This document shows positions 32,639 to 37,881 of a stretch of 64,000 nt of DNA, piece after piece. How positions within the stretch are numbered: position 1 is the stretch's first letter; each line of letters opens with the position of its first letter. The notes beneath the pieces are model-generated. The model was not told the origin of the DNA and did not search any database. It worked only from the letters and a program-made list of their open reading frames with translations. The translations under genes were made by a program, and so were the position numbers. Source of the DNA: Chitinophagaceae bacterium PMP191F (GTDB taxonomy: Bacteria; Bacteroidota; Bacteroidia; Chitinophagales; Chitinophagaceae); NCBI GenBank assembly GCA_001302245.1, contig LGYU01000010.1:248001-312000 (forward strand), given 5' to 3'.

Positions 32639-32773
32639 CTATTTCCGGCTAAGTATTGTTCTGTATACTAATAACCGCGTATTTCTGTCCATATCTAGTT
32701 GCAGAAGCTGGGCCCGCACATCAACATATACCATCAATAGTAATAATAGGGTAATGATCGTGCTGATTTTCAT
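32639..32773 (-). CDS. 44-residue secreted peptide or truncated secreted protein
   Basis: The ATG at 32773 opens a 44-codon frame with a textbook signal peptide (MKISTIITLLLLLMVYVDVR, then AQ) and only about 22 mature residues (LLQLDMDRNTRLLVYRTILS). The signal resembles that of the 404-residue protein encoded upstream (MKIKLSIVLLILVITCIDAQ). A copy of the 25-bp cluster element lies 40 bp before its start, the same spacing as for that gene, which suggests it is transcribed. It may be a genuine small exported peptide, or the remaining N-terminus of a gene whose distal part is the hypothetical frame at 32089. Confidence 0.45.
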   Translation of the reverse strand: MKISTIITLLLLLMVYVDVRAQLLQLDMDRNTRLLVYRTILSRK

Positions 32774-32813
32774 CGGAGATATTTTAATGTAAGATGTACA
32801 TTGTGCCGGTATT

Positions 32814-32838
32814 CAAAAATGTGAGAAAAGTAGTATTT
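32814..32838 (-). promoter_or_regulatory. 25-bp cluster element, copy 1
   Basis: The minus strand reads AAATACTACTTTTCT followed by CACATTTTTG. It shares AAATACTACTT, CT and CATT at fixed spacing with copies at 34110-34134 and 34792-34816. It lies 40 bp upstream of the 44-residue peptide start. Confidence 0.6.
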
Positions 32839-32855
32839 CTGCCACCGGTAGCCCT

Positions 32856-34070
32856 TTAGTATAAAAATTCTTCTGACTGGCTGAACACTTTTACATCTCC
32901 TTTATTGTAAAACACGGCAACCGGGGATACATCATAGCTCACATCCCATTTTATACCAGCCTGCCTGTATACCATTTTATCATTCAGGAATATATAATAA
33001 GTACCACTTACATATACCATTCTCAATTTATTAACTCCCTTTACAAGCTGAACATTCTCAGCATTGTATTTATCAAATTCAAATAACTCCTTTGGTGTAT
33101 CCTTTTTAAAAGTTTTCCAGCAGGAAGCACACATACTGTTCTCATCATACTTTTTAGAAGCTGCTTTAGAATACAACTGACCGGTATTGGTAACTACAAA
33201 CGAATGATATTTGGCGGTGTCTGCAGCATACTGCCCTACCCTGTAAAAGATAAATGCGAAGCCAAATCCATATTGCTCTTTACTCTGTATATCCAGTTCA
33301 AAATCAACGGTGATATTAAAAGCATCCGCATATATCCTGCTGCCGCCAAATTCAGGCCTGTTAAAGTCAGGCCATGTATTCAGGAATGACAGATCATTTT
33401 TTGTGTGGTGTATATTCAGCTTATCACTTTCAAAATCAATCTTGCAGGCTTCTAACTTTTTTGTATTGGACGGTTTATTGTATATGTAGAAACTGCCTGT
33501 TTTCTTTCTACCCTGCTGTTTTTCTCCGTAATTCTTCATTGCAAAATAGTAGTCGCTGTTACCAACCAGCTTCAGTTCCTTTTTGAATTTCATGGCCTCT
33601 ACCTGGTGGTTCACCAGTATTGCCAATGCAGCATCCTGCTGGGTAAACCAGAAAGAAAGCTCATAAGTAACCCGGTTCCTGGTATCAGTTTCCAACTCAT
33701 TGTTGAGTGCAAAAGAGATTAAAATCACCTTTTCTCCGCCGGGTAAAGTAATATTGGCAAAACACCTGGGAATGTAAATATTGCTTACCCGTACAGAGTC
33801 CATTCTATAATCTCCTTTCGCATGCTGAAGCAGTCGTTCTGTTGTTTCAACCAGGTAATCTACCGGAGCCAGATACCTGGGCACTGCAGAAACCTCTACA
33901 CGCATTTTAGGATTAGTATATTCAATCGTATTTGCGTCCTTTTCTTTCCTGTTTAAACCTTCGCCAAGATCTATCGAAAAAAGATTGTTTTCATACACCT
34001 GCTTTTGCGCCTGTGCATCTATACAGGTTATTACCAATATCAGCAGGACAATGGATAGTTTAATTTTCAT
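32856..34070 (-). CDS. Secreted protein of a two-component cluster, concanavalin-like C-terminal domain
   Basis: The protein has 404 residues with a signal peptide (MKIKLSIVLLILVITCIDAQ). Residues about 25-170 form an uncharacterised domain (NLFSIDLGEGLNRKEKD, VSNIYIPRCFANITLPGGE). Residues about 190-400 resemble the concanavalin-like fold of DUF1080-type domains (FYIYNKPSNTKKL, RIYADAFNITVDFELD, VNKLRMVYVSGTYYIFLND). A CxxC pair is present in SMCASCWKTF. It is 62 bp after the response-regulator gene, with a copy of the 25-bp element in that gap, so it is probably a target or partner of the kinase/regulator pair. Sugar or surface binding is possible but not shown. Confidence 0.75.
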   Translation of the reverse strand: MKIKLSIVLLILVITCIDAQAQKQVYENNLFSIDLGEGLNRKEKDANTIEYTNPKMRVEVSAVPRYLAPVDYLVETTERLLQHAKGDYRMDSVRVSNIYIPRCFANITLPGGEKVILISFALNNELETDTRNRVTYELSFWFTQQDAALAILVNHQVEAMKFKKELKLVGNSDYYFAMKNYGEKQQGRKKTGSFYIYNKPSNTKKLEACKIDFESDKLNIHHTKNDLSFLNTWPDFNRPEFGGSRIYADAFNITVDFELDIQSKEQYGFGFAFIFYRVGQYAADTAKYHSFVVTNTGQLYSKAASKKYDENSMCASCWKTFKKDTPKELFEFDKYNAENVQLVKGVNKLRMVYVSGTYYIFLNDKMVYRQAGIKWDVSYDVSPVAVFYNKGDVKVFSQSEEFLY

Positions 34071-34109
34071 GACAGCTATTTACAGCAAGTTCTGTAGAAA
34101 GCGCGTCTA

Positions 34110-34134
34110 TGAAAATGGTAGAAAAGTAGTATTT
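34110..34134 (-). promoter_or_regulatory. 25-bp cluster element, copy 2
   Basis: The minus strand reads AAATACTACTTTTCT followed by ACCATTTTCA. It overlaps the last two bases of the response-regulator stop codon and ends 39 bp upstream of the 404-residue protein start. Confidence 0.6.
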
Positions 34135-34762
34135 AGAGTAGACCAGTCTTCTTCAAAGCCTCCATACGGCTATTGACCTGTAGCTTTTCGTATATATTGC
34201 GTATGTGCGTGCGAACGGTTTCTATACTTATGTATAATTTATCGGCAATTTCACCATACCGGTAACCTTTGCTCAGCAATTCCAGTAGCTCCTGTTCCCT
34301 GCGCGTCAGTTGCTGAAAATATTCATTCGTTTTTTCCCGGAGTGTAAATGCTTCAATTATTTTCCTGGCAATCTGCCCGCTGATAGGACTGCCGCCATTG
34401 GTCACTTCTTCAATAGCAGCAATGATCTTATCGGCCGGTGTACTTTTAAGCAGGTAACTGACCGCCCCCGCTTTCAGCGCTTCAAAAATAGTATCCGGTT
34501 TATCATAAACAGTCAATATCATACACTGCATTAGCGGATGAATGATCTTTAACCTGCGGATGCATTCAATGCCGTTCATACCCGGCAGGTTAATATCAAA
34601 AAGCGCTATCTCAACAGGCTCCCTGGCCAATTCCCTCAACGCAGTTTCAGCATCTGCAAAAGCGCGCAGATCCTCTACGTCAATATGCAGTTGTACCTGC
34701 TCCGTAAGGTAATGCCGGATCTTATGATCATCTTCTATAATGGCTATGGACTTTATCTTCAC
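34133..34762 (-). CDS. LuxR/NarL-family response regulator
   Basis: The protein has 209 residues starting at a GTG. The receiver domain (1-120) has the acidic pair in AIIEDDHK, phospho-acceptor Asp in IALFDINLPGMNG (about D55), Thr in ILTVYDKP and Lys in LLKSTPADK. The LuxR-type HTH (about 145-205) has LTRREQELLELLSKGY, GEIADKLYISIETVRTHIRN and VNSRMEALKK. The histidine kinase ends 41 bp upstream, so the two are a pair. Copies of a 25-bp element before this gene and the two following ones are candidate binding sites for it. Confidence 0.95.
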   Translation of the reverse strand: MKIKSIAIIEDDHKIRHYLTEQVQLHIDVEDLRAFADAETALRELAREPVEIALFDINLPGMNGIECIRRLKIIHPLMQCMILTVYDKPDTIFEALKAGAVSYLLKSTPADKIIAAIEEVTNGGSPISGQIARKIIEAFTLREKTNEYFQQLTRREQELLELLSKGYRYGEIADKLYISIETVRTHIRNIYEKLQVNSRMEALKKTGLL

Positions 34763-34791
34763 TGTTTAAAATTGAGGCTTTGGCAGATAGT

Positions 34792-34816
34792 TTACAATGT
34801 TAGTTAAGTAGTATTT
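34792..34816 (-). promoter_or_regulatory. 25-bp cluster element, copy 3
   Basis: The minus strand reads AAATACTACTTAACT followed by AACATTGTAA. It covers the last codons and stop of the kinase gene and ends 29 bp upstream of the response-regulator start, about one helical turn closer than the other two copies. Confidence 0.55.
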
Positions 34817-37800
34817 AACGGAAAACGATAGATAAACCTGCTACCCAAACCAATTTCCGACTCTATTGTTACCTGGCCGTGCAGTTCTGCCGTTCTTTGC
34901 CGGATATTACGCAAACCATTACCCACACTGCTTTTTTCAGCATTGAACCCTATTCCGTTATCAGTTACTTCAATATGCAATACGCCCGAAAAAAGCTGCC
35001 CACTCACAATAATCACGCCGGCCTGGCTATGCTTAATGGCGTTGTTCACCGTTTCCTTAATAACCAGCAGAATGTTCCTGAGTTGCTCATTACTGAGCAG
35101 TATATGTTCCCCGCCTTCGGGTAATACGATCCGGTAATCTATACCTGCATATTCCAGTTGTTTGTTCAGTGCCTCACGCATGTAAGACAGTAATTGTTCC
35201 AGTGTTTTGCTCTCAGGGTGCAAGCTCCAGATAATTTCACTCATACTACTCACCAACTGGCGACCCGTATTGCTGATATCAGACAATTCTTTTTCATTGC
35301 CGGTAGACGATCTGTCCTTTGCAGATTCACTTAACAGGATGATCTGTGTCAGTCCGGCTCCGATATCATCATGCATCTCGCGACTGATCCGTTGCCGTTC
35401 TTTATCAACAGCCCTTTGTTTTTCCAGCGCTGCTATTTTCTGTTTCAGCTTACGTTGAGCTATCCGCCGGGTGGCCAGCACAATACTGCCTATAAACAGC
35501 AATACCGCTATGGTATAGAACCACCAGGTACGCCAGAAAGGTGGATGAATATCAATGAACACTTCACAGGGAACAGTATTCCAAATGCCTGATTGGTTTG
35601 CAGCCTTAACCCTGAAAATATATTTACCACTGGAAAGATGGTTATAACGCACCTCGTTCAATCCTTTGCTATAGATCCAGTCTTTATCCCACCCTTCAAG
35701 TTTATACATGTATTTAACGGCCTCAGCATTTTTAAACTCAATGCCGCGGAACCGGAAAAACAGGTTATTGTTCCACCAGGGCAATGAAAGGTTGCGAATA
35801 TATTCCGGTGCCATTGCATTATCTGCAGGCTGTTCATTCACCAGCATGCGTATAATACGTACAACAGGAGTATCCCGATAGCTGCGCACATTGGATGGAT
35901 CAAACCATGTTACACCAGTTGAGGTTCCCAGGTAAAGAAGCCCCCCTGGTCCTTTATAAAAAGCACCGGTATTAAACTCATCTGCCGGAAGACCATCATG
36001 ACTGGTAAAACTGGTAACCAGGCAGTAAGGCAATGGATCATCGGTATGAAACTGCAGCCCGATCTTTGATAGTCCACGATTGGTACTGACCCAGAGATCG
36101 TTTCCATCAGGCAACACGCCACAGACATAATCGCTTATCAAACCATTTTCTTCGGTAATACTTTTAAACTTTCCTGTTGGCAGATGATAAACAATCAAAC
36201 CGCTGGTACCGGAGATCCATAACAACTGATGCAGCGAATCGTGGTAAAAAGATTTTACATTAATGTCCCTGAATATCCATTTGGGCTCACTGTTTTTTCC
36301 CAGGCTGTCTGTAATAAAAATACCTCCCGATTCAGGGGCTATCCAGAGTTCTTTGTTATTGTGTACCCATATACCGGCAATTCTTGCCATACCATACCGG
36401 CTGATGAAAGTAGCTGTATAACCTTCTTTTTCTTTCACTATACAATACAGCCCGATATTGGTTCCAGCAAGCCAGCCGCTATGGTATTCGGCCATGCTCC
36501 ACATCTGCGGCACCTGTAAAGCATTGGAGGGAACGGGAACCTTTACCGGAACAAAACGTGAAGCCCCGGCTTCTTTCACATAGAATTGCCCGGCCATACT
36601 TGTCCAGAGATTTCCCCTGCTATCCGCTTTCACCAATGGTACAGACCTGGCATAAAAGAGTTGCGGACCGTTATAGGGAAAAATAACCTGGTTAGCTTTA
36701 CCGGTTTCCCTGTTAAAACAAAGAATGCCCTGCTGAAAAAGCCCTAACCATACATTGTTATGCGCATCCTCATAAATTGAGTGAACAAAATAATTGTCGG
36801 TTCTGCCGCCATCTTTATTGCCTGAAGGATAAAAATGAAAGATCTCCGGAGACACATCTGCTTTCTGCAACCCCAATACATCACCGCCTACCCAGAGATT
36901 GCGGTCGTCAAAACCGGCAATACAGTAAACCGGGAAATGGGTTACCTGGTTTGCTGTTCCGTTAATATTTCCTCTCCATACAAAAGCTGCCGATGCAACA
37001 GCCCGGCAATAAATATTCCCGGCTTCATCACCAGCCCATAGTTGACCGGTATTGTCTTTGTATACTCTTCGCAATAAACCCAGGGCTCGTGTACCGGAGC
37101 CATGATCGTTGTATATAAAAGCTGATCGGGTAAAAGAAAAGTTATGGGGATCGATGGCAAACAGTTCTTTGCCACTACAGGCGTACAATGTGTCTGCCAC
37201 GCAGGTTATTGAATAAAAACTGTAGCCAGGCAAAAAACGGTGCCATTGCCGGGTAACAATATCAAAACCCAGTATACCCTTTTTGCTGGCAAACCAGATC
37301 ATATTCCTGCCATCCCATACACCATTGTACATGAAGTATATCGGGTTACCCGCTTCATCCTTCTGTGTCAGCGGGTAATAACTGATACTGTTATTCTTTG
37401 TATGAATTGCATAAATGCCGGTCGAGTAATCGGCCAGCCACAGTAAGCTGTCCTTTATCACCAGTGGGTTAGCAAATTTTTTGGTGCAGGAACCTGTATC
37501 AGGAACTATCTTTCGTTTTTCAAGATCGTAGCATACAAATCTTTCCGTTCTTTTATCAAAGTATTGTACTGCCAGGTCTGATGAAAACCATATTCGTTCC
37601 TGGTCATCTTCTATCATGTCGGAACGGATGATCCTGCCACGCATCTGCCCGGGGATTTTTTGAAATGAAGGTTTGTATACTTTCACTTCCACACCATCAA
37701 AACGATTCAGGCCATTTGCTGTAGCTATCCACAAAAACCCCTGCCTGTCTTTCATAACAGCATACACCGTGTTCTGTGATAAACCGTTTATTTTCTCAAA

Positions 37801-37881
37801 CCGCAGCGGCTTATCCGGCTGACACCAGATATATAATGGAACAAGCAATGTTACAATGGCTATCAGGGGTCTCATAAACAT
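34804..37881 (-). CDS. Propeller-type sensor histidine kinase (HisKA_3)
   Basis: The protein has 1025 residues. A signal peptide (to about 20) is followed by periplasmic propeller blades (NTVYAVMKDRQGFLWIATAN, and repeated GNLWTSM/NVWLGLF types) to about 690, a Y_Y_Y domain (about 700-780, YMYKLEGWDKDWIY) and a membrane helix (about 788-806). HisKA_3 has its His in REMHDDIGAGL (about H837), and the HATPase shows NNAIKHS and TDNGIGF. Unlike the xylan HTCS it lacks receiver and AraC domains and uses the separate LuxR-type regulator encoded next. The signal sensed is unknown; similar sensors face the periplasm. A strong hairpin 26 bp upstream separates it from the peptidase operon. Confidence 0.94.
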   Translation of the reverse strand: MFMRPLIAIVTLLVPLYIWCQPDKPLRFEKINGLSQNTVYAVMKDRQGFLWIATANGLNRFDGVEVKVYKPSFQKIPGQMRGRIIRSDMIEDDQERIWFSSDLAVQYFDKRTERFVCYDLEKRKIVPDTGSCTKKFANPLVIKDSLLWLADYSTGIYAIHTKNNSISYYPLTQKDEAGNPIYFMYNGVWDGRNMIWFASKKGILGFDIVTRQWHRFLPGYSFYSITCVADTLYACSGKELFAIDPHNFSFTRSAFIYNDHGSGTRALGLLRRVYKDNTGQLWAGDEAGNIYCRAVASAAFVWRGNINGTANQVTHFPVYCIAGFDDRNLWVGGDVLGLQKADVSPEIFHFYPSGNKDGGRTDNYFVHSIYEDAHNNVWLGLFQQGILCFNRETGKANQVIFPYNGPQLFYARSVPLVKADSRGNLWTSMAGQFYVKEAGASRFVPVKVPVPSNALQVPQMWSMAEYHSGWLAGTNIGLYCIVKEKEGYTATFISRYGMARIAGIWVHNNKELWIAPESGGIFITDSLGKNSEPKWIFRDINVKSFYHDSLHQLLWISGTSGLIVYHLPTGKFKSITEENGLISDYVCGVLPDGNDLWVSTNRGLSKIGLQFHTDDPLPYCLVTSFTSHDGLPADEFNTGAFYKGPGGLLYLGTSTGVTWFDPSNVRSYRDTPVVRIIRMLVNEQPADNAMAPEYIRNLSLPWWNNNLFFRFRGIEFKNAEAVKYMYKLEGWDKDWIYSKGLNEVRYNHLSSGKYIFRVKAANQSGIWNTVPCEVFIDIHPPFWRTWWFYTIAVLLFIGSIVLATRRIAQRKLKQKIAALEKQRAVDKERQRISREMHDDIGAGLTQIILLSESAKDRSSTGNEKELSDISNTGRQLVSSMSEIIWSLHPESKTLEQLLSYMREALNKQLEYAGIDYRIVLPEGGEHILLSNEQLRNILLVIKETVNNAIKHSQAGVIIVSGQLFSGVLHIEVTDNGIGFNAEKSSVGNGLRNIRQRTAELHGQVTIESEIGLGSRFIYRFPLNTT

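Follow-up and report, generated by a model that had tools for sequence, protein, structure and literature searches.

Introduction

On the minus strand of the window, i.e., the whole 64-kb stretch of DNA analysed, one short sequence recurs in three consecutive gene junctions of a two-component cluster, which raises the question of what this element does and which protein reads it. The original prediction regarded it as an operator of the cluster's LuxR-type regulator or as an internal promoter element, and our results support this reading and suggest that both may apply at once, as a predicted operator coupled to a -7 box at fixed spacing. We know of no assigned binding sites and targets for most NarL-type regulators of Bacteroidota. 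In this work, we propose, with a probability of roughly 0.84, that the element constitutes a class II operator of the cluster's own NarL-type response regulator (RR), which would drive the RR gene itself together with a small regulon of exported proteins.

Results

Genes of the cluster

The sensor histidine kinase (1025 aa, 34804..37881, minus strand) displays Reg_prop, Y_Y_Y, HisKA_3 and HATPase_c domains. The RR (209 aa, 34133..34762, minus strand), proposed here as the binder of the element, combines a receiver domain (PF00072, E 1.7e-21) with a LuxR-type GerE domain (PF00196, E 1.2e-16), and is thus of the NarL/FixJ type; its nearest solved chains by sequence are VraR, DesR, NarL and DevR. 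The DNA-binding domain also weakly matches Sigma70_r4 models, and no sigma-factor gene was named among the eight cluster proteins scanned. The RR search in this genome returned 106 first-look candidates, 10 of which were scored.

The two remaining genes are predicted to encode, or to have encoded, exported proteins. The 404-aa protein (32856..34070, minus strand), a predicted target, displays a signal-peptide-like N-terminus and no Pfam family, even at E 1; outside its own genome it had a single match (E 2.4e-4, in 1 of 98 genomes), and was unusable as a search handle. Further, the 44-aa ORF (32639..32773, minus strand) resembles the N-terminus of a WG-repeat protein of 300 aa that is located behind the same element in another genus, with matches at 19 of 38 residues (E 3e-4, for the 64-kb window). 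The ORF is therefore probably what remains of the 5' end of a gene for an exported WG-repeat protein, and it still carries the best copy of the element.

Copies of the element in the window and in the genome

A 25-bp element in three copies had been described; the three copies are real, and the length is 21 bp, the four 3' bases being extra. The 21-bp sequence AAATACTACTTNNCTNNCATT occurs exactly, on the minus strand, at 32818-32838 (copy 1), 34114-34134 (copy 2) and 34796-34816 (copy 3), with no further match in the 64-kb window at up to 3 mismatches, and dinucleotide shuffles (n=100) gave a mean of 0.41 matches, none of them attaining three. Searching the full genome for the motif, as had been suggested, showed that it is not scattered: the 6.45 Mb contain four exact matches, none at 1 mismatch and four at 2 mismatches, and none was obtained with the reversed pattern at up to 1 mismatch. 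Of the four exact matches, the fourth is located on another, unlinked contig, 87 bp (counted from the 18-mer described below) 5' of an ORF for a 277-aa exported WG-repeat protein.

Across genera, the core of the element is the 18-mer TACTACTTNNNTCACATT. Copy 1 (TACTACTTTTCTCACATT, 32818..32835, minus strand), the predicted operator before the gene remnant, is the exact consensus; copy 3 (TACTACTTAACTAACATT, 34796..34813, minus strand), located in the kinase/RR junction and predicted to be the operator of the RR gene, has 1 mismatch; and copy 2 (TACTACTTTTCTACCATT, 34114..34131, minus strand), the predicted operator 5' of the 404-aa exported protein, has 2. All three are in coding orientation, near stop and start codons. 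As previously claimed, copies 2 and 3 touch or cover the preceding stop codon, since copy 2 shares two bases with that of the RR, and copy 3 contains the kinase TAA (34804-34806). The distances of 40, 39 and 29 bp to the next start codons were likewise correct for the 25-bp coordinates; the conserved 18-mer itself ends 44 (copy 1), 43 (copy 2) and 33 bp (copy 3) before these codons.

Conservation in relatives

The RR was searched in 294 genomes of the family, taken as Chitinophagaceae, and 15 matches (own included) displayed at least 65% identity, separated by a gap from the next match at 54%. In 15/15 of these the element (up to 2 mismatches) is located 5' of the RR, at a distance of 32-83 bp from the aligned start, and in 14/15 a second element is found within 1.3 kb after the RR. 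The kinase stop codon falls inside the element in 11/15 orthologs, and at most 5 bp before it in 3 more. In our reading of the sites listed for the 15 loci, the region 2-4 kb 5' of the RR, which holds the beginning of the kinase, has no entry at up to 2 mismatches. Pairwise identity among the 15 orthologs is 83% for the element vs 30% for the spacer, and the consensus in relatives sharpens to TACTACTT-NNN-TCACATT.

Thus, conservation in relatives, on which the original prediction depended, was found upstream of the RR for the refined form of the element, and the original 21-base form is not kept. The 21-mer at 1 mismatch had matches in 16 of 99 genomes, i.e., our own and 15 others (16 scattered hits), the reversed control giving 14; the lack of conservation first suggested by this search was overturned, the element being kept as the refined 18-mer only. 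The exact core was found at 34 sites in 26 of the 294 family genomes, a search in which the reversed control also gives some matches; 7 of the 34 have neither box (see below) nor nearby RR and, in our reading, look like chance or coding matches. Coding matches such as TACTACTTCATTCACATT, which have no box, were treated as chance.

An element-led scan for the core followed by ANNTTT at fixed spacing, using one genome per species from 84,980 species, returned 29 stretches (32 matches), 27 from Bacteroidota (Chitinophagaceae, Mucilaginibacter, Cytophagales, Cyclobacteriaceae, and others unplaced) and 2 from Firmicutes. Thirteen of the 29 were sites already known from the family genomes, and 16 were new. 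Cultured species among those carrying the element are Terrimonas ginsenosidimutans and Mucilaginibacter gilvus. An RR homolog was present in the same stretch in 25/29, two of these being fragments. Among the RR-less stretches, L156 is on one contig with L167, which has an RR homolog, L155 also belongs to a genome that has a clade RR on a different contig, and the two from Firmicutes were taken as chance. Between the RR and the next gene of L083 (10999-11086), a forward and a reverse site resembling the element were observed, the latter with 2 mismatches.

A -7 box at fixed spacing

Alignment of the sites revealed a second conserved block at a fixed distance from the element. In 44 non-redundant sites, chosen regardless of any -7 box, the σA-type -7 box TAnnTTTG starts 21 bp downstream of the element, with at least 5/6 matching positions in 25/44 and at least 4/6 in 34/44, whereas at 49 other spacings at most 2/44 sites reached 5/6. 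When TAnnTTGY was allowed too, the counts rose to 29/44 and 37/44, respectively, with at most 5 sites at 5/6 or better for the other offsets from 10 to 33. Apart from this box, the sites retain little other core promoter sequence. The boxes of our own genome are weak, matching TAnnTTTG at 3, 3, 4 and 3 of 6 positions for copies 1 to 4, and TAnnTTGY at 4, 5, 3 and 5; on the minus strand of the window, the predicted boxes are CAATTTTA for copy 3 (34767..34774), GAACTTGC for copy 2 (34085..34092) and CATCTTAC, a weak one, for copy 1 (32789..32796). The composite pattern of element plus box retrieved the same four sites of this genome at 0 mismatches, and ten at 2 mismatches (reversed control, 24). 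Four other 1-mismatch matches to the core in the genome, with position 13 left free, were rejected as candidates; their boxes are poor (1-3/6 to TAnnTTTG), and three are placed over long open frames.

In class II activator-dependent promoters, the activator site is centred near -41.5, over the -35/-33 region. According to an excerpt of PMC9723704, the σA box of Flavobacterium psychrophilum spans -12 to -5; in this register the element would extend from about -51 to -34 with its centre at -42.5, and the predicted start would be the 34th base after the element. For copy 3 this predicted start is 34762, where the RR start codon begins. The RR start codon is placed exactly 33 bp after the element in 8/15 orthologs and within 1 bp of this distance in 3 more. 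The RR mRNA is consequently a candidate leaderless transcript in most orthologs, and since one of the remaining distances is ambiguous (39 bp by alignment, 33 by GTG) and three are of 58-83 bp, the prediction does not hold for all. Leaderless mRNAs represent 5.5% in F. psychrophilum, and 5' leaders shorter than 10 nt about 3.7% in Bacteroides thetaiotaomicron, as given in excerpts of PMC9723704 and PMC7366714, respectively.

Link between the element and the response regulator

The loci compared numbered 99, from which 81 RRs entered the tree and the recognition-helix set, after 14 duplicates or fragments were dropped and four loci were found to have no RR (L155, L156, L171, L178). One branch of the tree (99/91; 98% of 200 bootstrap trees) parts the 36 RRs with the element from the 45 without it, the label of 12 of the 36 stemming from the scan that required the element; the 69 RRs picked by RR similarity alone comprise 24 with and 45 without. 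The recognition helix follows the same division: the motif RTHxR is present in 36/36 RRs with the element vs 3/45 without, T185 in 36/36 vs 7/45, and R188 in 36/36 vs 14/45. In the alignment, T185 and R188 face V189 and K192 of NarL, which we take to be DNA contacts; a literature search for these two NarL residues gave no match. Because the element follows both the RR clade and its recognition helix, the results point to the cluster's own RR as its predicted binder. The element, its spacing, its conservation and its match to the RR clade and helix are seen directly in the sequences. In the receiver domain of the RR (34133-34762), residues I/V82, L83 and D87 also distinguish the two sets of RRs (L83, 1.00 with the element vs 0.11 without it), perhaps reflecting partner specificity.

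Regarding its symmetry, the 18-mer shows no clear palindrome of the NarL type and no clear repeat; the best direct-repeat correlation was 0.73 at 11 bp (7 positions), and inverted arrangements reached up to 0.71 (8 positions). An inverted pair of heptamers in the 7-2-7 arrangement characterises NarL itself rather than the NarL/FixJ family in general, and is absent from the 18-mer, where the full inverted overlay gave 0.36.

Predicted targets

Genes other than the RR behind the sites displayed a signal-peptide-like N-terminus in 42 of 43 cases, export being called by a simple hydrophobicity rule on ORFs picked by script. Four entries (RR, RR fragments or a coding chance site) had been removed from this list, and three sites had no readable ORF. 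By BLAST clustering, the targets include six WG-repeat proteins (the remnant in the window among them), six members of an unnamed ELSK..KGFL family, six lipoprotein-like proteins with CKK and paired cysteines, and four propellers (one tested: PQQ_2).

Junction elements of other response regulator clades

Three other RR clades were found to carry junction elements of their own: TCTAACACTTTTTTGTGA in group B (8 rows: L075, L193, L200, L201, L210, L185, L222, L076), with 23.3 bits vs a shuffle maximum of 12.7; AAATACCACTATAGTGT in group C (6 rows: L074, L187, L195, L199, L204, L205), with 20.6 vs 13.0; and TAACTTTTGTTCTATTG in group D (9 rows: L184, L186, L191, L198, L207, L211, L183, L209, L073), with 23.5 vs 12.9, each maximum being taken from 12 shuffles. 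Since the rows within a group are related, the shuffles overstate significance, and the spacer is the fairer control; on this measure, in the window clade and groups B, C and D, pairwise identity is 83-89% for the element vs 30-37% for the spacer. The 8 rows representing the window clade in this comparison were our choice, and its distances were therefore taken from all 15 orthologs; L202 was excluded from group C before the count, its junction being alike by eye. In 23/23 rows of groups B, C and D, the upstream frame ends in a stop codon that overlaps the element, in one row by just one base, and the -7 box downstream of the element is found at 22-23 bp (B), 24-25 bp (C) or 19 bp (D).

In groups A, E and G, no sound junction element was established: the block of group A is found after an alternative start, group E reached 12.8 vs a shuffled maximum of 13.1, and group G 15.6 vs 13.3 with two of its three rows near-identical. 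The two rows of group F lack the window's element; they share the RTHIRN helix, and display the half-site TAC(C/T)AC arranged as an inverted repeat. In addition, the palindrome TACCACAAAGTGGTA was observed at L219 (G000:C1:80382-83999), 5' of an RR paralog encoded in the same genome, and the group of this paralog has no significant common element.

We consider it fairly probable that these layouts are instances of a general one in Chitinophagaceae and other Bacteroidota. Each NarL-type RR clade would keep its own operator over the kinase stop codon in the kinase/RR junction, with a -7 box at a distance that is fixed within the clade; feedback would lift the RR alone, with an often leaderless mRNA in the window clade, and the junctions would supply binding sites whose pairing with the recognition helices would amount to a specificity code.

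Discussion

We infer binding of the element by the RR, dependence of this binding on phosphorylation, activation rather than repression, and the start sites, which together make up the following model. The phosphorylated RR would occupy the 18-mer, from about -51 to -34, and recruit σA RNA polymerase to the -7 box 21 bp downstream, i.e., class II activation. Copy 3, in the kinase/RR junction, would give the RR a start of its own, so that activation raises the RR and not the kinase, from an mRNA for which no leader is predicted. Copies 1 and 2, together with the unlinked fourth copy, would place genes for exported proteins under the same control, copy 1 now fronting a remnant.

The RR could also bind the element and act as a repressor, covering the -33 region until relieved on signal. 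The overlap of the element with this region makes it a possible repressor seat. We nevertheless judge repression unlikely, as the sites have kept the -7 box and little other core promoter sequence, as activator-dependent promoters would show, and a centre near -42 is a usual class II position. Far less probable is that the element constitutes the recognition sequence of an alternative sigma factor, even though its fixed distance to the start region resembles that of a -35 box. The downstream box is of the σA type TAnnTTTG, by which an ECF sigma promoter was ruled out; none of the eight scanned proteins was named as a sigma factor; the presence of the element tracks the RR clade and its helix; and clades with different helices have different elements at the same place. 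A role at the RNA level, as a signal in the leader, for processing or for translation, would suit the coding orientation of the window copies close to stop and start codons, and appears more doubtful still: provided that the -7 boxes are correct, the element is 5' of the start site and missing from those transcripts, the conserved unit is the element plus its box, and the fourth site precedes an unlinked gene. Lastly, with just three copies in the window, chance similarity or a recently duplicated junction segment could be considered, but three matches were obtained in 0/100 shuffles, the differing flanks rule out duplication, and conservation (83% vs 30%) refutes both, leaving this explanation a negligible one.

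Activation by the cluster's own RR is thus the reading that we retain. Points that speak against it are the weak -7 boxes of the window's own genome, the lack of clear palindromic or repeat structure in the 18-mer, the orthologs whose RR start codon is not about 33 bp from the element, and the 7 of 34 exact family sites with neither box nor nearby RR. An earlier description of the element, or of such regulation, was not found in the literature (open-licence PMC papers, without preprints), which was searched on the motif, on NarL-type regulators of Bacteroidota and NarL-type specificity, on the regulators and regulons of Chitinophaga or Chitinophagaceae, and on promoters internal to kinase/RR pairs. 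If the kinase/RR junction holds the operator of each regulator, sites and regulons would become readable from sequence, and, if this is true, the link between recognition helix and site would be directly testable, opening a specificity code for a very large family of regulators. For the window clade, a small regulon of exported proteins is predicted, the WG-repeat family included, as well as a feedback that would lift the regulator without its kinase.

Compared with known systems, the proposed circuit resembles autoregulated two-component operons, in which the RR activates its own gene, as the RR here would do. Unlike such operons in general, the site is found at the RR gene only, none being listed at the beginning of the kinase (15 loci, our reading). 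The cluster is also similar to NarX/NarL-type systems, with a HisKA_3 kinase and an RR composed of receiver and GerE domains. According to an excerpt of PMC4549865, NarL binds specific promoter sites, and prefers inverted heptamers two bases apart (7-2-7), whereas the element described here is a non-palindromic 18-mer, located over the kinase stop codon and at a Bacteroidota-type σA -7 box. The TAnnTTTG of Bacteroidota σA promoters is matched by the box 21 bp downstream of the element, some sites fitting TAnnTTGY, as described in excerpts of PMC9723704 and PMC7366714; unlike those promoters, a regulator-specific 18-mer here covers the region of the -33 box.
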